Source of the DNA: Thermomonas sp.
GTDB lineage: Bacteria; Pseudomonadota; Gammaproteobacteria; Xanthomonadales; Xanthomonadaceae
Length of the DNA: 64,000 nt
Direction of reading: 5' to 3'
NCBI RefSeq assembly: GCF_019104945.1
Contig: NZ_JAHRWW010000014.1
Span: forward strand, 62,001-126,000
This document shows positions 697 through 31,230 of the stretch, one piece after another; within the stretch, counting starts at the first letter, position 1, and the number at the start of each line of letters is the position of its first letter. The translations under genes were made by a program, and so were the position numbers. The notes under the pieces were generated by a model. It searched no databases, was not told the origin of the DNA, and saw nothing but the letters and a program-made list of their open reading frames with translations.

Positions 697-1323
697 ATGG
701 CTTGGTCGCGTGAACAAATGGCGCAGCGCGCCGCGCAAGAACTTACCGATGGTGCGTATGTGAACCTTGGGATTGGTCTTCCCACCATGGTGGCCAATTA
801 CATCCCGGATGGCGTGAACGTGTGGCTGCAAAGCGAAAACGGTTTGCTGGGGATCGGCCCGTTTCCCACCGAAGCTGAGCTAGATGCGGATCTGATCAAT
901 GCTGGTAAGCAAACAGTAACCGCGCTGCCCGGTGCGAGTTTCTTTGGCAGCCATGATTCGTTTGCGATGATTCGCGGCGGGCACATCGATCTTGCCATCC
1001 TCGGTGCGATGGAAGTCACCGATAAGGGTGATCTTGCCAATTGGATGGTGCCCGGCAAGATGGTCAAAGGCATGGGTGGAGCGATGGACCTAGTGGCTGG
1101 CGTGCGCCGTGTGGTGGTGCTGATGGAGCATTGCACGAAAGCAGGTGCGCCCAAAATCATTCCGCAGTGCACTTTGCCGCTCACCGGCGTGGGCGTGATC
1201 AGCCGCATCATCACCGAGCTCGGTGTGTTTGATATTACGCCAGAGGGCTTGAAGTTAGTGGAGCTAGCAGCGGGCGTAAGCCGCGAAGAAGTTGCGGGTA
1301 AGACCGGTGTGCCGCTGCGCTGA
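697..1323 (+). CDS. scoB: 3-oxoacid CoA-transferase subunit B
   Basis: Beta subunit of the same CoA-transferase, 208 residues, usual family length. The active-site motif LQSENG is at residues 44-49, and Glu47 is the residue expected to form the glutamyl-CoA thioester. The ATG is preceded by AGGAGG inside the end of scoA, so translation is coupled. Substrate could be acetoacetate (ketone-body or PHB-derived), which fits the phasin gene elsewhere in the window. Other short-chain 3-oxoacids are possible. Confidence 0.95.
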
Positions 1324-1337
1324 TCTTCTATCTCGCA

Positions 1338-1445
1338 GCTAGCTCAGGGCGGCTTATCCCTTCCGCGGATGTCCCCCGGTAGCAGCAAAAAACGCTGCTA
1401 CCTCCTCCTTGATTCCGCTACAGGGACAAGCCACCCTAAGCTAGC
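1338..1445. repeat. Palindromic miniature repeat, copy A
   Basis: Imperfect palindrome of about 108 bases. Its ends are a 23-base inverted repeat (20 of 23 matching, mismatches mostly G-U compatible) starting GCTAGCTCAGGGCGG. The centre is a hairpin GTAGCAGC / GCTGCTAC with an A-rich loop. The inner segments TCCGCGGATGTCC and CTTGATTCCGCTACAGGGA recur in inverted orientation in copy B. No reading frame. Looks like a REP/MITE-type element in the gap between two convergent genes. Confidence 0.7.
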
Positions 1446-1468
1446 GAAGTGGGTCTTTCGCTTTTTTT
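1443..1468 (+). terminator. Intrinsic terminator of scoAB
   Basis: Stem AGCGAA (1443-1448) pairs with TTCGCT (1457-1462) and is followed directly by six further T on the + strand. It lies about 120 bases after scoB and overlaps the end of palindromic copy A. Confidence 0.6.
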
Positions 1469-1487
1469 GGCGCGCACTGTCACCACG

Positions 1488-1587
1488 GGCATCCGCCGGT
1501 TACTCCCTGTAGCGAAATCAAGGGGGAGGCAGCGGCCGCAGGCCGATGCCGGAGGACATTCGCGGAAGGGGGTAACCGGCGGATGCC
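1488..1587. repeat. Palindromic miniature repeat, copy B (inverted relative to A)
   Basis: About 100 bases bounded by 20-base terminal inverted repeats GGCATCCGCCGGTTAC(T/C)CCC, 19 of 20 matching. Read on the - strand, its interior (TTCCGCGAATGTCC...CTTGATTTCGCTACAGGGA) is nearly the interior of copy A, so A and B face each other across about 42 bases. No coding capacity. Confidence 0.7.
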
Positions 1588-1606
1588 TAGCTAGCTAGAT
1601 TTGGTG

Positions 1607-3271
1607 TTACATATTTTGATAATTCGGCCCGCCGCCACCCTGCGGCGCCACCCAAACGATGTTCTGCGTGGGGTCTTTGATATCACAGGTTTTGCAGTGC
1701 ACACAGTTGGCCGCATTGATCTGTAAACGCTCGTGGCCGGGTTCACCCACATACTCATACACACCTGCCGGGCAGTAGCGCGCTTCCGGCCCAGCGTATT
1801 TTGCGAGATTGACGGACACGGGAATCGTGGCGTCTTTCAGCGTCAAATGACTCGGCTGGTTCTCGTCGTGGTGGGTGCTGGAAAGAAACACCGAACTCAG
1901 GCGGTCGAAGGTGAGTACACCGTCGGGCTTGGGATATTCAATTTTTGGTTGCGTGGCCGCAGGCTGCAGGCAGGCGTGGTCCGGCGTGCTGTGATGAAGT
2001 GTCCACGGCGGGTTGCGGATACCCAGCTTCGGCAATAACCATTGCTCGATGCCGGTCATCAGTGTGGCGAAATTACGGCCCTTCTTGAACCACTGCTTGA
2101 AGTTCTTCGACTGCTGCAGTTCGGCATGCAGCCAGCTCTTTTCAAACGCTTCTGGGTAGGCTGTAAGTGCATCGTGCTTGCGGCCTTCCACCAATGCCGC
2201 CGCAGCGGCTTCAGCGGCCAGCATGCCGGTTTTGATTGCTGCATGGCTGCCCTTGATGCGGCTGGCGTTGAGGAAGCCAGCCTCACAGCCCACCAGTACG
2301 CCGCCGGGGAAAATAGTTTTCGGCAAACTCAGCAGCCCGCCCACGGTGAGCGCGCGTGCACCGTAGCCAATACGCTTGCCACCTTCTAAGTGCTTACGAA
2401 TAGATGGGTGCGTTTTGAAACGCTGAAATTCGTTGAACGGGCTAAGCCATGGGTTTTTATAATCCAACCCAACAACAAAGCCCACGGCGATCTTGCCGTC
2501 CTCGGCGTGGTAGAGAAACGAGCCGCCATAGGTATCGCTTTGCAGCGGCCAGCCAGCGGTATGCACAACGAGGCCGGGCTGGTGTTTGGCTGGGTCGGCT
2601 TGCCACAGCTCCTTGATACCGATGCTGTAGCTCTGTGGGTCTTTGCCCTCATCCAGTTTGTATTTTTCGATTAGCTGACGGCCAAGCTGGCCGCGCGCGC
2701 CTTCGGCAAAGATCGTGTACTTGGCGTGCAGCTCCATACCGCGTTGGAATTGGTCGGTGGGCTGGCCGTCTTTGCCAATGCCCATATCACCGGTGGCTAC
2801 GCCCTTTACAGCGTTATTTGCGTCATACAGCACTTCGGTGGCAGCAAAGCCGGGGAAGATTTCAACACCCAGTGCTTCGGCTTGCTGCGCCAGCCAGCGC
2901 GTCAGTGCGCCGAGGCTGACAACATAATTGCCGTCATTATGGAAACATTCCGGCAGCAGCCAGCCGGGGGTTCCGCGCGCACCAGTTTCACTTAAAAATA
3001 AAAACTCATCGCGGGTCACGGCTTGCTTGAGTGGTGCGCCGCGTTCCTTCCAATCTGGAAAAAGTTCGGTGAGCGCTTTCGGATCGACAATCGCGCCCGA
3101 CAAAATATGCGCCCCCGGTTCCGAACCTTTCTCCAGCACGCAAACGCTTAGGTCTGAGTTGAGCTGCTTGAGGCGAATGGCGAACGACAGGCCGGCAGGG
3201 CCACCGCCAACGGTGACGACGTCATACTCCATCGCCTCGCGTTCGATGGCGTCAGGGCTGGTCTGGTTCAT
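1607..3271 (-). CDS. etfD: Electron transfer flavoprotein-ubiquinone oxidoreductase
   Basis: Membrane-associated flavoprotein that passes electrons from ETF (fatty acid and amino acid dehydrogenases) to ubiquinone. It has 554 residues, as usual for the family. The FAD dinucleotide motif GGGPAG is at residues 22-27. The C-terminal ferredoxin-like domain holds the four cluster cysteines at 500, 523, 526 and 529 (NCVHCKTCDIKDP). The ATG at 3271 has TTAGGAGCG upstream as ribosome binding site. It stands alone; the ETF subunits etfA/etfB are not in the window. Confidence 0.97.
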   Translation of the reverse strand: MNQTSPDAIEREAMEYDVVTVGGGPAGLSFAIRLKQLNSDLSVCVLEKGSEPGAHILSGAIVDPKALTELFPDWKERGAPLKQAVTRDEFLFLSETGARGTPGWLLPECFHNDGNYVVSLGALTRWLAQQAEALGVEIFPGFAATEVLYDANNAVKGVATGDMGIGKDGQPTDQFQRGMELHAKYTIFAEGARGQLGRQLIEKYKLDEGKDPQSYSIGIKELWQADPAKHQPGLVVHTAGWPLQSDTYGGSFLYHAEDGKIAVGFVVGLDYKNPWLSPFNEFQRFKTHPSIRKHLEGGKRIGYGARALTVGGLLSLPKTIFPGGVLVGCEAGFLNASRIKGSHAAIKTGMLAAEAAAAALVEGRKHDALTAYPEAFEKSWLHAELQQSKNFKQWFKKGRNFATLMTGIEQWLLPKLGIRNPPWTLHHSTPDHACLQPAATQPKIEYPKPDGVLTFDRLSSVFLSSTHHDENQPSHLTLKDATIPVSVNLAKYAGPEARYCPAGVYEYVGEPGHERLQINAANCVHCKTCDIKDPTQNIVWVAPQGGGGPNYQNM

Positions 3272-3340
3272 GCAGCGCTCCTAAGATCAAGCCTGTTATT
3301 GTCGTTGGTTTGGTTAGCGTGAACAATCTAAAGCGCTGCG

Positions 3341-3973
3341 TTAGCGCGCTTTTTGCGTGCGCGCCGGGCCGGTTTGCAGCACCCACGCGCTCACGTCGCG
3401 GCCAAGCTGGGTCAGCAGTGGGGTGAATGTTGCAGAAACTTGCGCAACCTCGCTGCCTTGGGCGGGCTGTTCAAGCACAAAGGTGCGGTTTCCCACGAGG
3501 CTGAGGTCGGAGAGTTTGAGCAGTTTTGCGTTCACTTCGATACGTGCAAAAGGCATTTCTTTTCCGGCGTAATCGGCCTTGAAATCACGCAGGTCGAGTA
3601 GAAGCCTGTAGTCGCTGGTGGCTCCGCTGTCTTGACGGGTGACCGACGCAATTTTGCCGCTGTCTTCCAGCGTGCGCAGGATGATGTCCTCTACCATGCC
3701 GCCGGGTGCGCGCGCCCAGGTGGCTGCGCGATAGACCTGCAGTTCACCGGGTGTGGGGCTAACCACGATACGGTTACTTTCCAACATGCGTGGCACTTGT
3801 GGCGGTGCCACTTCCAGCGACCAACCGACCTGCGGCCAAGCGGCATCGGGTTGGGTGGTGGGGGCAGGCGCGTAAATCGAAGACGATTGTTTCGGCCCAC
3901 CAATCAGGCTGCTGCAACTGCTCAGCAGTAGCGTAATAAAAACGCAGGCGGAAGTTGTGAGTAGGCGGCTCAT
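3341..3973 (-). CDS. ABC-type transport auxiliary lipoprotein (PqiC/DUF330 family)
   Basis: Outer-membrane-directed lipoprotein of 210 residues. The signal sequence ends in lipobox LLSSC with the lipidated cysteine at residue 20. The body resembles PqiC/DUF330 proteins, periplasmic partners of MCE lipid transporters. Its ATG overlaps the stop of the MCE gene by four bases (ATGA), so it is the last gene of a coupled four-gene operon. Its probable role is to link the MCE protein to the outer membrane. The substrate cannot be read from sequence. Confidence 0.85.
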   Translation of the reverse strand: MSRLLTTSACVFITLLLSSCSSLIGGPKQSSSIYAPAPTTQPDAAWPQVGWSLEVAPPQVPRMLESNRIVVSPTPGELQVYRAATWARAPGGMVEDIILRTLEDSGKIASVTRQDSGATSDYRLLLDLRDFKADYAGKEMPFARIEVNAKLLKLSDLSLVGNRTFVLEQPAQGSEVAQVSATFTPLLTQLGRDVSAWVLQTGPARTQKAR

Positions 3974-25540: not shown

Positions 25541-26827
25541 TCAGCCTTGCTCGCGTGCAATCGCGCGCCAGCCGATGTCGTTGCGGTGAAATTCGTGCGC
25601 CCAGTGAATAGCCTTCACTCCTGCATAGGCATTGCGTTGCGCCTCGTGTACCGATGCGCCGAGTGCGGTGACACACAGCACGCGGCCGCCCGCGCTGATG
25701 GTATTGCCACTCGCGTCGAGCGCTGTGCCGGCATGAAACACCTTGGCCGTTTCTGGAACATCGGCCAGCCCGTCGATGCGGTCGCCGGTAATCGGCGCTT
25801 CTGGATAGGGCTTGGCGGCCATCACCACACCCAATGAAGGGCGTGGGTCCCATTGCGCTTGGGTTTCGTGCAAACGTGCATCGATCCCGGCTTCGATGAG
25901 ATCAACGAAGTCCGACTGCAGGCGCAGCAGCACCGGCTGAGTTTCTGGGTCACCAAAGCGCACATTGAATTCAATCACTTTCGGCGCACCGCTGGCGTCG
26001 ATCATCAGGCCTGCATACAAGAACCCGGTAAACGGAATGCCATCTTTGGCCATGCCCTGCACGGTGGGGTTGACGATCTCACGCATCACGCGTGCATGGA
26101 TCTCGGGCGTCACGACGGGGGCGGGGGAATAGGCCCCCATGCCGCCGGTATTCGGGCCGGTGTCGCCATCACCCACGCGCTTATGGTCTTGCGAGGTGGC
26201 CATTGGTAGTGCGGTTACGCCGTCCACCATCGAAATAAAGCTGGCTTCTTCACCGTCTAAGAATTCTTCGATCACCACGCGCGCGCCCGCATCACCAAAC
26301 GCATTGCCCGACAGCATGTCGCGCACGGCGGCTTCAGCTTCGGCAAGCGTCATGGCCACGATCACACCTTTGCCTGCAGCGAGGCCGTCAGCTTTGATGA
26401 CAATTGGTGCACCCTTGCTGCGCACGAAGGTCAGCGCTGGTTCAACCTCGGTATGTACCTCGTAAAATGCGGTGGGGATGCCGTGACGGGCGAGGAAGTC
26501 TTTGGCGAACGCCTTGCTGCCTTCTAGTTGCGCTGCAGCAGCGGTGGGGCCAAAGATGCGCAAGGATGCGGCGCGAAAGCGATCCACCACGCCTGCTACC
26601 AGCGGCACCTCTGGCCCAACCACGGTAAACGCGACGCCTTCGTCTTGCGCCAGCGCCAGCAGGCCGTCGATGTCGGTGACTTTCAGCGCCACGTTGCGGC
26701 ATTTGTGCTCATTGGCCGTGCCGGCATTGCCGGGAGCCACGAGCACTTCAGAAACACGTGGCGACTGTGCAAGCTTCCACGCCAAGGCGTGCTCGCGGCC
26801 GCCGGAACCGATAACGAGAAGTTTCAT
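25541..26827 (-). CDS. purD: Phosphoribosylamine-glycine ligase
   Basis: ATP-grasp enzyme making glycinamide ribonucleotide in purine synthesis, 428 residues, normal length. N-terminal domain KLLVIGSGGREHALAWKL, ATP-grasp segment VIKADGLAAGKGVIVAM, and PurD signature FNVRFGDPETQP are all intact. In related genomes purD commonly follows purH; here the borosin-like cassette lies between them on the opposite strand. Confidence 0.97.
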   Translation of the reverse strand: MKLLVIGSGGREHALAWKLAQSPRVSEVLVAPGNAGTANEHKCRNVALKVTDIDGLLALAQDEGVAFTVVGPEVPLVAGVVDRFRAASLRIFGPTAAAAQLEGSKAFAKDFLARHGIPTAFYEVHTEVEPALTFVRSKGAPIVIKADGLAAGKGVIVAMTLAEAEAAVRDMLSGNAFGDAGARVVIEEFLDGEEASFISMVDGVTALPMATSQDHKRVGDGDTGPNTGGMGAYSPAPVVTPEIHARVMREIVNPTVQGMAKDGIPFTGFLYAGLMIDASGAPKVIEFNVRFGDPETQPVLLRLQSDFVDLIEAGIDARLHETQAQWDPRPSLGVVMAAKPYPEAPITGDRIDGLADVPETAKVFHAGTALDASGNTISAGGRVLCVTALGASVHEAQRNAYAGVKAIHWAHEFHRNDIGWRAIAREQG

Positions 26828-26945
26828 AAATCAAAATATTGTGCGGTAAAGGAAGGACGGTACGCGGTTTCAACAAGAGCTTTGTGCTAGTGTTGGAGGT
26901 TATGGCATAACGCTGCTGGATGCAGCACAGCATACAGGGAATGGC

Positions 26946-27164
26946 ATGTCGAAGCTGCTGGAATTCATGCGTAACTTGGGCCGCGACGCTGTGCTCGCCG
27001 AAGAGTATGCGCGGCGACCGGAGGTTGTGATGCGGCGCGCAGGGCTTAATGCGGAGGAACGCAAAGCAATGCTGGCGCAGGATTATGAGGCCATTAAAGC
27101 CCTGAGTGGATTGAAAGACGGTCAGTTTGCAACGCAGCAAATTATTTTTGCTTACGACGAGTAA
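26946..27164 (+). CDS. Putative split-borosin precursor peptide (SonA-like)
   Basis: 72-residue helical protein immediately upstream of the methyltransferase fusion, with AGGGA seven bases before ATG 26946. Residues about 4-54 match by eye the leader (borosin-binding domain) of Shewanella SonA: LG-x-DA-x-L...Y...PE-x-VMR...GL...LSG. The last part, Q60 to E72 (QFATQQIIFAYDE), would be the core, with I66, I67 and F68 as possible N-methylation sites. The fold is also that of LigA-like dioxygenase small subunits, but no LigB partner is nearby. Function is inferred from homology and pairing; the matured product is unknown. Confidence 0.78.
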   Translation: MSKLLEFMRNLGRDAVLAEEYARRPEVVMRRAGLNAEERKAMLAQDYEAIKALSGLKDGQFATQQIIFAYDE

Positions 27165-27180
27165 TTGGAACCACATTGGT

Positions 27181-29604
27181 ATGCCGTTGCTGCGCTGCTT
27201 GATCGCATTGATGCTTTTCCTTGCTGCGGCAGGGGCAGCTGCGGTGGGCAACCCGCCGAGCGCGGCGCAGATGCAGCACGATGAGACCGAATACCAGCGC
27301 TTGCGCGGTTTGGGGCTAAAAGGGGAAACGGATGCTGCATTGCAGGGCATGCAGCAGCTTCTGCAGCGTGAGCTTGATCCTGAACTGCGTGTGCTTGCTT
27401 ATACCACCGGGATTAGCATGGCGGCGGGCGTTGAGCGCTGGCAGCAAGCCTTCGTTTGGGCCGATGCTGGGTTGAATTTTATCGAAGAGGCACCGAAGAA
27501 CTCGGCGCTGCTTTTAAGCGTGTCTAGCTATCTTTATGCGCTGGTTGGTGATTTAGAGCGTGCGCAAGAATTTGGCCAGCGTGGACTGGTGCAGGCAGAA
27601 GCAGGGGGCGACCTTTTTGTGCTGTGTCGGGCCTTATCCACCCATGCCATCGTGCAAGAGCTGCGAAAGGATCTTACGGCGTTGGAGCCACTGCGCCGCC
27701 GCCAAATCGATGTTTGTGGGAAGGCCGGGGACAAGATTTTCGTTGCCAACGGCACGCAAGGGATGGGCATGTATTTTGCGGGACGCAAACACTATGCCGA
27801 GGCCTTGCAGTGGTTCCGCCGGGCGCTGCAGCTTTTTCAAGCAGAAGGCTTTGACGGGGGCGCGCAGGGCGCAAAATTAGAAATTGCAAAAAGCTTGGTG
27901 GCGCTCAATCAAGAGGCTGCACAGGCGAGTGTGTTGCTAAGGGAGGCCGGCCGTTACTACGCGCGTCAGCGTTTAGCGCAGCCGTTGGTCGATGTGGAGC
28001 AGTTTCAGGCCGAATTGGCCGAGCGGCGAGGCGATATTGCCGACGCGCTGCAGCATACACAACACGCATTGCAGCACACCAAAGAGCTTGATCGACGCAT
28101 GCAGGAGCGGCGATTGCTGTTGATGCAGCTACAGTTCGACTCGCGTCTGAAAGAAGAGCAGATCCAATTGCTAGAGGCTTCCACAGAACGGGCCAAGGGC
28201 GAAGCAAAGGCGGCGCGCAAACAGCAGCAATTGATTGCGATTGCGGCACTGAGTCTGCTGGCCGCAGCCGCCCTATTGCTGGCGCTTTTGCGGCGCGTGT
28301 TTCGAGATCGCCAGCGTTACCGTTTTCAGTCCGAGCATGATGGCTTGACGCGGCTGTTGAATTATCCTGCGCTGCTTCACCAAGGCGCGCAGGTATTGGC
28401 GCAGGCGCGTGCCAAGGGGGCAGCGTTTACTGCGGTGGTCGTGGATATCGATCACTTCAAAACGATCAACGATAGCCATGGTCATGCCGCGGGTGACGAA
28501 GTGCTGCGCATGCTGGCGCGCTGGATTGGCGAGGCCATGGGACAGCGCGGCTTGGCCGCGCGGCGCGGTGGTGATGAATTTACCTTGCTGCTGAATATGG
28601 ATGAGCCGCAGGCGGAGGTGTTGCTGCAGCATCTTCGTGGGCTGATACAGCCCGTTCGTGCGCAGGGTACTACGCCTACGCTGCGCTTTTCGGTCAGTAT
28701 GGGCTTTTGCCAAAGCGATGCCGAAGGCGAGACCTTGGAGCAGTTGATTCATCGGGCGGATTTGGCCTTGTATCGTGCTAAGCACGAAGGGCGAGATCGC
28801 CTTGTTTCTGCGCATCACGAAACGAGCCTTCCATCAAACTCCGGCTTGGTTGTGGTGGGGAGTGGTATCCAGTTTGGACGCCACGCTAGCGAGCGCTGCT
28901 TGTCGGAGATTCGCCGCGCAGAAGTGCTGTTCTGTTTGACCGACCCTGCAACGCTGGCGATGATTCAGTCTATGCGTCAGGACGTGATCAATCTCGGGCG
29001 CTATTACGCGACAGGAAAAGATCGAAGACAGACCTACCGTGAAATTGACGCGACGATCATGGCCGAGGTGCGTGCGGGAAAACAGGTCTGCGCCGTGTTC
29101 TATGGCCACCCCGGTGTGTTTGCCGATGTGCCGCATCGCGTGGTGAATCAAGCGCGCGCGGAAGGGTTTGCAGCACGTATGGAGCCAGGCATTTCGGCAG
29201 AAGCCTGTCTTTATGCTGATCTTGGTATCGACCCTGGACGGCGTGGTGTGCAGTCGCTTGAAGCCACGCATTTTCTTTATTACGACCGCCAGATCGATCC
29301 GGCAGGTTTGCTGCTGCTCTGGCAGGTGGCGCTGGCGGGGGATTTGAGCTGCAGTCGCCGTGAGGCTGATCCGGCTGGCCTGCAGGCGTTGGTGGATAAG
29401 CTTCTGCGCTGGTATCCAAGTGACCACGAAGTCATTTTGTACGAAGCTGCGCAGCTTCCCGTGTTTGCGCCGCGCATGGGGCGGATGCGTTTGTCTGATC
29501 TGCCCGCGGCACGCTATGAGGAATACACGACGCTCGTTATTCCGCCGCTAGATGTACTGCGGGAAGACCCATGCTGCGGGTTAGCAAGCGCTGTGGCTGA
29601 ATAA
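27181..29604 (+). CDS. TPR-GGDEF diguanylate cyclase fused to borosin-type alpha-N-methyltransferase
   Basis: 807-residue protein from ATG 27181, where a signal peptide or anchor begins (MPLLRCLIALMLFLAAAG); an upstream TTG-type start is unlikely. Residues about 25-320 hold TPR repeats (periplasmic), 322-350 a coiled coil, and 350-370 a transmembrane helix. A GGDEF domain follows at about 385-545 with RGGDEF at 462-467, DIDHFK and NDSHGHAAGDE intact, and no I-site. From 555 to about 790 comes a tetrapyrrole-methylase-fold domain closest to OphMA/SonM borosin methyltransferases: VVVGSGI, YYATGKDRRQTY (Tyr609, Arg615, Tyr619 match OphMA Tyr66, Arg72, Tyr76), VFYGHPGVF, and ARMEPGISAEACLYADL. 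The putative precursor ends 16 bases upstream. Confidence 0.88.
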   Translation: MPLLRCLIALMLFLAAAGAAAVGNPPSAAQMQHDETEYQRLRGLGLKGETDAALQGMQQLLQRELDPELRVLAYTTGISMAAGVERWQQAFVWADAGLNFIEEAPKNSALLLSVSSYLYALVGDLERAQEFGQRGLVQAEAGGDLFVLCRALSTHAIVQELRKDLTALEPLRRRQIDVCGKAGDKIFVANGTQGMGMYFAGRKHYAEALQWFRRALQLFQAEGFDGGAQGAKLEIAKSLVALNQEAAQASVLLREAGRYYARQRLAQPLVDVEQFQAELAERRGDIADALQHTQHALQHTKELDRRMQERRLLLMQLQFDSRLKEEQIQLLEASTERAKGEAKAARKQQQLIAIAALSLLAAAALLLALLRRVFRDRQRYRFQSEHDGLTRLLNYPALLHQGAQVLAQARAKGAAFTAVVVDIDHFKTINDSHGHAAGDEVLRMLARWIGEAMGQRGLAARRGGDEFTLLLNMDEPQAEVLLQHLRGLIQPVRAQGTTPTLRFSVSMGFCQSDAEGETLEQLIHRADLALYRAKHEGRDRLVSAHHETSLPSNSGLVVVGSGIQFGRHASERCLSEIRRAEVLFCLTDPATLAMIQSMRQDVINLGRYYATGKDRRQTYREIDATIMAEVRAGKQVCAVFYGHPGVFADVPHRVVNQARAEGFAARMEPGISAEACLYADLGIDPGRRGVQSLEATHFLYYDRQIDPAGLLLLWQVALAGDLSCSRREADPAGLQALVDKLLRWYPSDHEVILYEAAQLPVFAPRMGRMRLSDLPAARYEEYTTLVIPPLDVLREDPCCGLASAVAE

Positions 29605-29606
29605 GG

Positions 29607-29626
29607 CCGCGGGGTTCCCCCCGCGG
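29607..29626. terminator. Possible hairpin terminator between convergent genes
   Basis: CCGCGGGG (29607-29614) and CCCCGCGG (29619-29626) form a perfect eight-base-pair stem with a TTCC loop, in the 39-base gap between the methyltransferase fusion and purH. No strong T-run follows on either strand, so termination would be weak or factor-aided. Confidence 0.45.
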
Positions 29627-29643
29627 GTCTTGTGGATGCTCAG

Positions 29644-31230
29644 TTAGTGCCGGAAGTGGCGCACGCCGGTGAACACCATGGCGATGCCGTGTTCGTCGGC
29701 AGCAGCGATCACTTCGTTATCACGCATGGAGCCGCCCGGCTGGATCACCGCCTTGATGCCCGCTGCTGCAGCGGCGTCGATGCCGTCGCGGAACGGGAAG
29801 AAGGCGTCGGAGGCCATCACCGAGCCCGGCACAATCAGGCCTGCATCTTCGGCCTTGATGCCGGCGATGCGCGCTGAATACACGCGGCTCATTTGGCCTG
29901 CGCCCACACCAATGGTGCGGTTGTCTTTGGCATAGACAATGGCATTGGATTTGACGAACTTGGCCACTTTCCACGCAAATAATAGGTCGGACAGTTGAGC
30001 ATCGGTCGGCGCAAGCTGAGTCACCACTTTAAGCGCGTCGCGCTGCACAACGCGATCATCGGCGGTTTGCAGCAGTAGGCCGGAATTCACACGCTTGGTG
30101 TCGATAAAACCGGGTGCGGTTGGGGCGAGTGGAATGCGTAGCACGCGCACATTGGCTTTTTTCTTCGCGTATTCAAGCGCGGCGTCGTCGTAGTCGGGTG
30201 CAATCAGCACTTCAACAAATTGGCGATCCAAAATGGTCTTGCAGGTGGCCGCATCGAGCTTGGTATTGAACGCAAGAATGCCGCCGAAGGCGGAGGTTGG
30301 GTCGGTGGCATACGCGGCTTCGTAGCTGTCTGCGCAGCCGCTGCCGACGGCCACGCCGCAGGGGTTGGCGTGCTTCACAATAACGCAGGCCGGTGCGTCG
30401 AACTGGCGCACGCATTCCCAGGCGGCATCGCTATCGGCGATGTTGTTGTAAGACAGCTCCTTGCCCTGCAGCTGAGTGAAGGTCGCCAGTGAACCGGGCG
30501 CGGGGTACAGGTCGCGGTAGAACGCGGCCTGCTGGTGCGGGTTCTCGCCGTAGCGTAGATCCATCACTTTGATGAAGCTGCCGTTGGTTTGCGCTGGGAA
30601 CTCGGCACGCGTGGGCACGGCGCTATCGGTGGCGGTGATCGAGGAGAGGTAATTGCTGATCGCATCGCCGTACTGCGCCACGCGGTTGAATGCAGCAACA
30701 GCCAATTGAAAGCGGGTGGCGGCAGAGAGTGCGCCGTTGCCGCTGGCAAGTTCAGCCAGTAGATGGGCGTATTGGTCTGGTGAGGTGACAACCGCGACAC
30801 GGGCAAAGTTTTTCGCCGCGCTGCGCAGCATGGCCGGGCCACCGATGTCGATATTTTCTACCGCATCTTCGAGCGTGCAGTCGGCGTTTGCGGTGACGGC
30901 TTCAAAGGGATAGAGATTCAGCACCAGTAGATCAATTTTGCCGATGCCGTGTTGTTCCATCACCGCATCATCAAGCCCGGCGCGGCCCAGAAGCCCGCCA
31001 TGAATCAACGGGTGCAGAGTTTTGACGCGGCCATCCATCATTTCGGGGAAACCCGTGACTTCGCTCACATCTTTAACCGCAAGCCCCGCATCACGCAGTG
31101 CTTTGGCGGTGCCGCCGGTGGAGAGTAGTTCAACGCCACGCGCGGCGAGCGCTTGGGCAAGTTCAATCAGGCCGGTTTTATCGGAAACAGACAGAAGCGC
31201 CCGGCGGAGGGGCAAAAGATCGGCAGCCAT
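29644..31230 (-). CDS. purH: Bifunctional AICAR transformylase/IMP cyclohydrolase
   Basis: Last two steps of purine synthesis, 528 residues. The N-terminal cyclohydrolase (MGS-like) domain contains [16 protein letters not shown] and [19 protein letters not shown]. The C-terminal transformylase contains [25 protein letters not shown] and [15 protein letters not shown]. It lies 27 bases after fis in the same direction and probably shares its transcript. Confidence 0.97.

Follow-up and report, generated by a model that had tools for sequence, protein, structure and literature searches.

Domain organization of the fused protein

The gene analysed here lies at positions 27181–29604 (+) of the window, by which we mean the whole 64,000-nucleotide stretch of Thermomonas sp. 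DNA that was examined. Its product is composed of an N-terminal segment, a TPR region, a transmembrane segment, a GGDEF domain and a borosin methyltransferase domain. Translation confirmed the claim of the first-pass annotation that these domains follow one another, in this order, in a single uninterrupted frame of 807 residues; no internal stops were found. An alternative TTG start further upstream, at 27127, would give a protein of 825 residues.

The same annotation described a membrane protein with a signal or anchor, a transmembrane helix and an intact GGDEF domain, and predictions based on hydropathy, motif scanning and AlphaFold support this description. The hydropathy scan revealed two hydrophobic segments, at residues 4–22 and 351–369 in the 807-residue numbering. 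The first falls within a predicted N-terminal signal peptide or anchor (residues 1–22; 27181..27246, +), while the second is a predicted transmembrane segment (28231..28287, +; hydropathy 2.79) placed just before the GGDEF domain. This domain extends over residues 385–540 (28333..28800, +; PF00990, 2.1e-35) and has an intact GGDEF motif at residues 463–467 (28567–28581, +); an I-site scan of the domain gave no RxxD I-site. The helical TPR-like region, predicted to be periplasmic, covers residues ~28–282 (27262..28026, +). Here the earlier claim of TPR repeats held in part: it agrees with the helical hairpins seen in the model and with a profile common to the linked cyclases described below, but the Pfam matches remain below the cut-off, the best being TPR_2 at residues 195–219 (2.5e-05).

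The AlphaFold model, obtained with 14 aligned fused proteins, had a mean pLDDT of 74.8 and a pTM of 0.41. It is built of helical hairpins (~28–282) and a long helix (286–385), followed by the GGDEF and methyltransferase regions, with pLDDT values below 50 at residues 670–728 and in other parts of the methyltransferase. When the model was compared with known structures using Foldseek, its GGDEF region fitted the coiled coil and GGDEF domain of DgcB well, with a target TM-score of 0.85 and an rmsd of 2.8.

Family and active site of the methyltransferase domain

To the C-terminal domain (residues 556–795; 28846..29565, +) the first-pass annotation had assigned a borosin alpha-N-methyltransferase function, as opposed to that of a cobalamin or sirohaem methylase. 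The search of all PDB sequences with the C-terminal 257 residues came out in favor of the borosin call: the best match was SonM (1.8e-66, 227 bits) and OphMA scored ~3e-43, whereas the best cobalamin methylase, precorrin-2 methylase, reached only 0.013. Pfam recognizes the broad TP_methylase family at residues 556–757 (E 9.5e-17), an assignment that would also suit a tetrapyrrole-type methylase acting on a small molecule or on another protein and not on the neighboring peptide. We consider such an activity very improbable in view of the PDB scores, of the conserved borosin catalytic residues and of the SonA-like partner encoded next to the fused gene. We rejected membership in the tetrapyrrole (cobalamin/sirohaem) methylases, as borosins rank first in the PDB search and the four NCBIfam matches to the domain are all far below their cut-offs. 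Sequence comparison supports the placement of the domain in the split-borosin methyltransferase family. In the Foldseek search with the whole model, SonM chains were again at the top (9e-18), with target TM-scores of 0.44–0.47 and an rmsd of ~12 over ~247 columns in a region where the model is poor; because these TM-scores are low and the rmsd is high, the structural comparison adds little to the sequence evidence.

The residues proposed to be catalytic were found where they had been placed. Tyr609, Arg615 and Tyr619 (29005..29037, +) align with Y58, R67 and Y71 of SonM, and Tyr641 (29101..29103, +) aligns with Y93; the same Tyr/Arg/Tyr set is present in OphMA and dbOphMA. Two segments named in the same annotation were also located, VFYGHPGVF at residues 639–647 and ARMEPGISAEA at residues 665–675. 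According to the available text of PMC8429565, all four SonM positions (Y58, R67, Y71 and Y93) were probed by mutation. The equivalents of SonM Y58, R67, Y93, E146, W166 and Q167 are kept in every one of the 26 fused genes of our survey, and that of Y71 in 25 of them, with Gly in its place in one tandem copy (L020:1196-3766).

Precursor peptide and putative core

Upstream of the fused gene, and ending 16 bases before its ATG, lies a gene for a 72-residue split-borosin precursor (26946..27164, +), with a SonA-like N-terminal part and a putative core at the C-terminus. This small partner is a relative of SonA, phmmer having matched the 72-residue protein to SonA chains at 1.5e-9 to 4.9e-9 (1.6e-9 over residues 1–57). 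A precursor relative accompanies 25 of the 26 fused genes; at the threshold applied it was missing beside one fused gene (L060), one of the 20 loci in which the cyclase precedes the methyltransferase and six of the 42 with the opposite layout.

By aligning 25 precursors of the fused clade and counting the residues in each column, we infer that the core is formed by the C-terminus of the peptide, which in the window would correspond to residues 58–72, DGQFATQQIIFAYDE (27117..27161, +). The tails of the fused clade show Phe/Tyr followed by Ala/Ser (25/25), Asn (20/25), His (17/25), Ile/Val (25/25) and Tyr (25/25). Most of the clade shares this tail, and the window's own is among the less typical: with FATQQIIFAYDE, its core does not follow the consensus of the clade, most relatives having Asn in place of the first Gln of the pair in DGQFATQQIIFAYDE. 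Of the four relatives from its genus that carry the gene, three (L026, L033, L035) are likewise off consensus, with an extra residue and Gln for Asn. Counted by eye, 16 of 19 precursors from the cyclase-then-methyltransferase layout have, close to the C-terminus, an Asn that follows Thr, Ser, Ala or Ile, and the 36 from the methyltransferase-then-cyclase layout have varied, mostly acidic tails. Tail conservation across genera would suit a signal-like role better than that of an arms-race product. SonA is methylated at L63 and I65 (available text of PMC8429565), positions that would correspond, in a gapless alignment, to Thr63 and Gln65 of the window precursor; since they land on these residues, the methylation sites are not readable from the window precursor.

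Recurrence of the fused gene

The first-pass annotation had called for a survey of other genomes for the same TPR-GGDEF-methyltransferase order, and we found this order to recur in 26 non-redundant genes. Within the genus of the window, the fused type was present in 5 of the 25 genomes searched, its own included (G000, G005, G011, G016 and G019). When genome contigs were scanned, a search that reaches only close relatives, 13 of the 15 loci obtained were fused. In the draw from the order, methyltransferase matches that reached at least 1e-30 were obtained in 204 of 398 genomes; in that from the class, 9 of 369 genomes gave a match at 1e-20 or better, namely the window's own, one from the same order and seven others. 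We fetched 84 regions and analysed them together with the window and with L017–L031. The regions were chosen from the best-scoring matches listed, with an eye to the spread of genera, and are not a random sample. Methyltransferase matches weaker than 1e-60 were dropped before counting, as were L051, L058, L059, L072 and L111, which are second copies of L026, L018, L025, L030 and L031, respectively. The final set comprised the 26 non-redundant fused genes and 70 stand-alone methyltransferases. Carriers of the fusion include Pseudoxanthomonas gei, P. yeongjuensis, Luteimonas mephitis, L. granuli, L. colneyensis and L. marina.

Several loci showed irregularities. The fused gene of L035:5636-8210 (genome G016) is split over two overlapping frames, reflecting a frameshift in either the genome or the assembly. 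Another, L022:1599-4004, comes from a MAG labelled Sphingomonadales and groups with the Pseudoxanthomonas copies, as expected from wrong binning or transfer. A tandem duplication, with precursor and fused gene each present twice in alternation, was found in L020:688-6765, its first copy (1196-3766) being more diverged than the tandem partner. A second, partial methyltransferase-like frame, of 259 residues and 64% identical to the window over residues 88–174, follows the fused gene of L025 at a distance of 2.8 kb (L025:7705-8484). By Pfam, the window cassette is situated between purD and purH (25541-31230). In L051 and L035, the two same-genus relatives showing both genes, purH and purD are adjacent and the cassette lies beyond purD, so either the cassette or purD has moved.

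Linkage of stand-alone methyltransferases to TPR-GGDEF cyclases

In our sample from the best-scoring matches listed, 62 of the 70 stand-alone methyltransferases had a GGDEF gene on the same strand within 1.2 kb. Within the order, this was true of 61 of the 63 sampled among the matches listed; the two misses were L068, cut by a contig end, and L054, a weak, distant paralogue with the nearest GGDEF ORF at 1.76 kb. Outside the order, one of the seven sampled was linked (L078), and the other six lacked a GGDEF gene on their strand within this distance; borosin methylation chemistry therefore seems not to need a cyclase. As an internal control we counted GGDEF ORFs with increasing distance in the 63 order loci and obtained 65 up to 1.5 kb, 13 between 1.5 and 3 kb and 4 between 3 and 4.5 kb, the sequence available in the three bins amounting to 187, 184 and 176 kb, respectively.

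Almost all of the linked cyclases belong to one TPR family. A TPR profile made from the fused proteins alone, with L035 omitted, matched the nearest linked cyclase in 59 of 62 loci, and in 61 after one iteration. These regions hold another 26 GGDEF ORFs, of which 15 were not matched by the profile; the 11 that were matched are additional TPR cyclases that belong to these clusters or lie close to them. Two layouts could be distinguished. In 20 loci the cyclase precedes the methyltransferase, often with a 4-base overlap and with the precursor in front, and in 42 the methyltransferase comes first, usually with the precursor between the two genes. One of the 20, L039, was counted by its nearer upstream cyclase, which is not matched by the TPR profile; a TPR cyclase is also present downstream. 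This locus has in addition three consecutive precursors (L039:6823-10357). We regard the order-wide link to one cyclase family as a real lead, although the linkage could reflect shared regulation only.

Origin of the fusion and sequence constraint

In a careful tree of 89 methyltransferases, from which seven far rows were left out, a branch supported at 100/98 separates the 26 fused genes, together with the truncated L068, from all other sequences; the bootstrap was incompletely settled. A quick tree of 96 placed the fused genes in a 46-row group together with 18 cyclase-then-methyltransferase genes, L068 and L078. The fused clade is thus nearest to clusters with abutting TPR-GGDEF and methyltransferase genes, and the simplest reading is that a single stop loss between such genes gave rise to the fusion, on an unrooted tree that does not tell gain from loss.

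The cyclase motif is retained throughout, GGDEF or GGEEF being intact in 26/26 fused proteins and in the nearest cyclase of 62/62 linked loci (88 motifs). The RxxD I-site is distributed differently: it is absent from all 26 fused proteins and all 20 cyclase-then-methyltransferase genes (0/46), and present in 32 of the 42 loci of the methyltransferase-then-cyclase layout. As this contrast follows the groups of the tree, it may represent one event. These data bear on the possibility that fusion and linkage serve tethering or co-regulation only, that is, that they provide equal amounts or a membrane location for two mutually independent activities. Such a reading would agree with the six unlinked methyltransferases out of seven sampled outside the order, and with the fact that SonM acts in vitro without a GGDEF domain (available text of PMC8429565). 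On the other hand, linkage in two gene orders together with fusion suggests something more, as does the I-site difference between the layouts, with the reservation that it may go back to one event; we consider tethering or co-regulation alone unlikely.

The fused genes are under constraint. In six fused-gene pairs, each compared in three parts, dN/dS ranged from 0.13 to 0.39 in 17 of the 18 comparisons; the exception was the GGDEF domain of L017/L018, with a dN/dS of 1.10 at a synonymous distance of 0.05. The flanking parts of this pair have synonymous distances of 0.27 and 0.18, as if the GGDEF segment had recently been exchanged. Identity to the window among the fused loci was 32–43% in the TPR region, 44–59% in the GGDEF domain and 64–80% in the methyltransferase. 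The assembly that holds the window is a draft genome of 56 contigs, in which an assembly join or a chance open frame could mimic a fusion. The domain order is found in 26 non-redundant genes, some of them from named cultured species, which excludes both a chance frame and one isolated join in the assembly; purifying selection in most of the dN/dS comparisons argues the same way. We reject the artefact reading, its probability being practically negligible.

Genes around the fused loci

The short flanks available for 25 fused loci were inspected for further conserved components. The largest extra cluster of frames, present in 12 loci, runs antisense to the fused genes. Beyond this cluster and the precursor, no cluster occurred in more than four of the 25 loci; with flanks this short, a protease or exporter may lie farther out. 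Representatives of three of the small clusters were examined. One of the four-locus clusters encodes an MFS/acyltransferase protein; the loci are the window and its same-genus relatives, so this recurrence is simple synteny. Another small cluster (4 loci) encodes a protein without a Pfam match. A MATCAP-type carboxypeptidase gene (tyrosine carboxypeptidase family) was found in the flanks of three loci (L021:165-2420, L027:1652-3043 and L061:2-1882), possibly by chance. A C-terminal Tyr is present in the precursors of L021 and L027 and absent from that of L061.

These neighborhoods are relevant to a self-sensing or quorum-like circuit, in which the methylated core would be cut off and leave the cytoplasm, the periplasmic TPR region would sense it, and the GGDEF output would be set in response. 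TPR regions bind peptides in other systems. A precursor was found in 19 of the 20 linked loci with the cyclase first and in 36 of the 42 with the methyltransferase first, the MATCAP-type gene could play a part in such a circuit, and in L106:1120-6565 one methyltransferase is followed by two precursors, each with its own TPR cyclase behind it. Against this stand the scarcity of other recurrent genes in the flanks and the two or three cyclases per precursor in L036, L070, L074, L087, L114 and L031. Furthermore, the TPR region is the least conserved part of the protein and has changed more quickly than the methyltransferase, which disfavors recognition of the core by it. We therefore regard a peptide-receptor circuit of this kind as quite unlikely. 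A strict pairing of one precursor with each cyclase was considered and rejected: L106 and L020 fit it, and the six loci with several cyclases per precursor do not.

Relation to known systems

One of the closest described systems is SonM/SonA of Shewanella oneidensis (type IV; available text of PMC8429565), which has the same methyltransferase family and catalytic residues and, like the window, a separate precursor; that of the window has ~72 residues and a SonA-like leader. SonM stands alone, while its counterpart in the window makes up the C-terminal part of a membrane protein that also has TPR and GGDEF regions. The fungal fused borosins OphMA and dbOphMA also belong to this methyltransferase family, but carry the core on the methyltransferase chain, whereas in the window it is on a separate peptide. 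SiaD of Pseudomonas aeruginosa has the GGDEF domain in common with the window protein, as judged from Foldseek and from an NCBIfam match below the cut-off that spans the GGDEF region, and has no methyltransferase part. RcbB of Vibrio vulnificus combines, like the window protein, a TPR region with GGDEF and is, according to the abstract of PMC12282931, a diguanylate cyclase under the control of an operon partner; the partner, RcbA, is a TPR protein, and the abstract names no methyltransferase or precursor peptide.

According to the first-pass annotation, this fusion is not known to have been described, a statement that is now doubtful. Among the borosin architectures in the legend of Figure 1 of PMC11395268 there is an entry 'GGDEF, GGDEF-sequence-containing domain', and the article cites Imani 2022 and Cho 2022 for borosin types V–X. 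The resemblance of this architecture to the window fusion is drawn from that one figure legend, on which basis the TPR-GGDEF-methyltransferase fusion itself is probably not new. GGDEF was not found in the text of a review covering types V–X (PMC11285071), and the legend was its only mention in the borosin literature searched. Within that literature we found no text linking borosins or split borosins with a diguanylate cyclase or c-di-GMP, nor one joining a RiPP precursor peptide, a methyltransferase and a diguanylate cyclase; neither the order-wide linkage nor the I-site difference was found in print.

A possible c-di-GMP module with a peptide component

We propose that the two genes make up a split-borosin cassette, that the methyltransferase now forms the C-terminal domain of a membrane-bound TPR-type diguanylate cyclase and that it is coupled to the GGDEF domain, an explanation that we give about even chances. 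As judged from sequence, both catalytic domains of the fused protein keep their active-site residues. The TPR region would be periplasmic, with the GGDEF and methyltransferase domains in the cytoplasm. The methyltransferase would bind the precursor, dimerize like SonM and N-methylate the C-terminal core. GGDEF domains also work as dimers, and the linker between the GGDEF domain and the methyltransferase has only ~15 residues, so a mutual influence of the two dimer interfaces is to be expected. Binding or methylation of the precursor would most likely alter GGDEF activity, or the reverse, control being conceivable in either direction. In that case the peptide would serve within a c-di-GMP circuit and not as a weapon.

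Coupling between c-di-GMP and peptide maturation gains indirect support from the order-wide gene linkage and the single fusion clade, and control of a TPR-GGDEF cyclase by a partner has a precedent in RcbB/RcbA (abstract of PMC12282931). For the coupling itself, of the cyclase with the methyltransferase and its peptide, the sequence data leave the balance level. With slightly less confidence we suggest that split borosins in this order may mostly be neither antibiotics nor metallophores; they would instead provide the peptide half of a c-di-GMP signaling module. In such a module a SonA-type precursor, a backbone N-methyltransferase and a dedicated TPR-GGDEF cyclase would act as one switch. In one clade the methyltransferase and the cyclase would form a single receptor-like enzyme whose cyclase output would follow the binding or methylation state of the peptide.

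If true, this would connect ribosomal peptide modification with c-di-GMP, a link for which we found no report in the literature searched. The fusion is carried by cultured Luteimonas and Pseudoxanthomonas strains and is thus open to testing. The recurrent partnership suggests, without proving it, that the peptide belongs to a signaling circuit, and the repeated pairing with one diguanylate cyclase family leads to a testable guess, namely that backbone N-methylated peptides may take part in second-messenger signaling.
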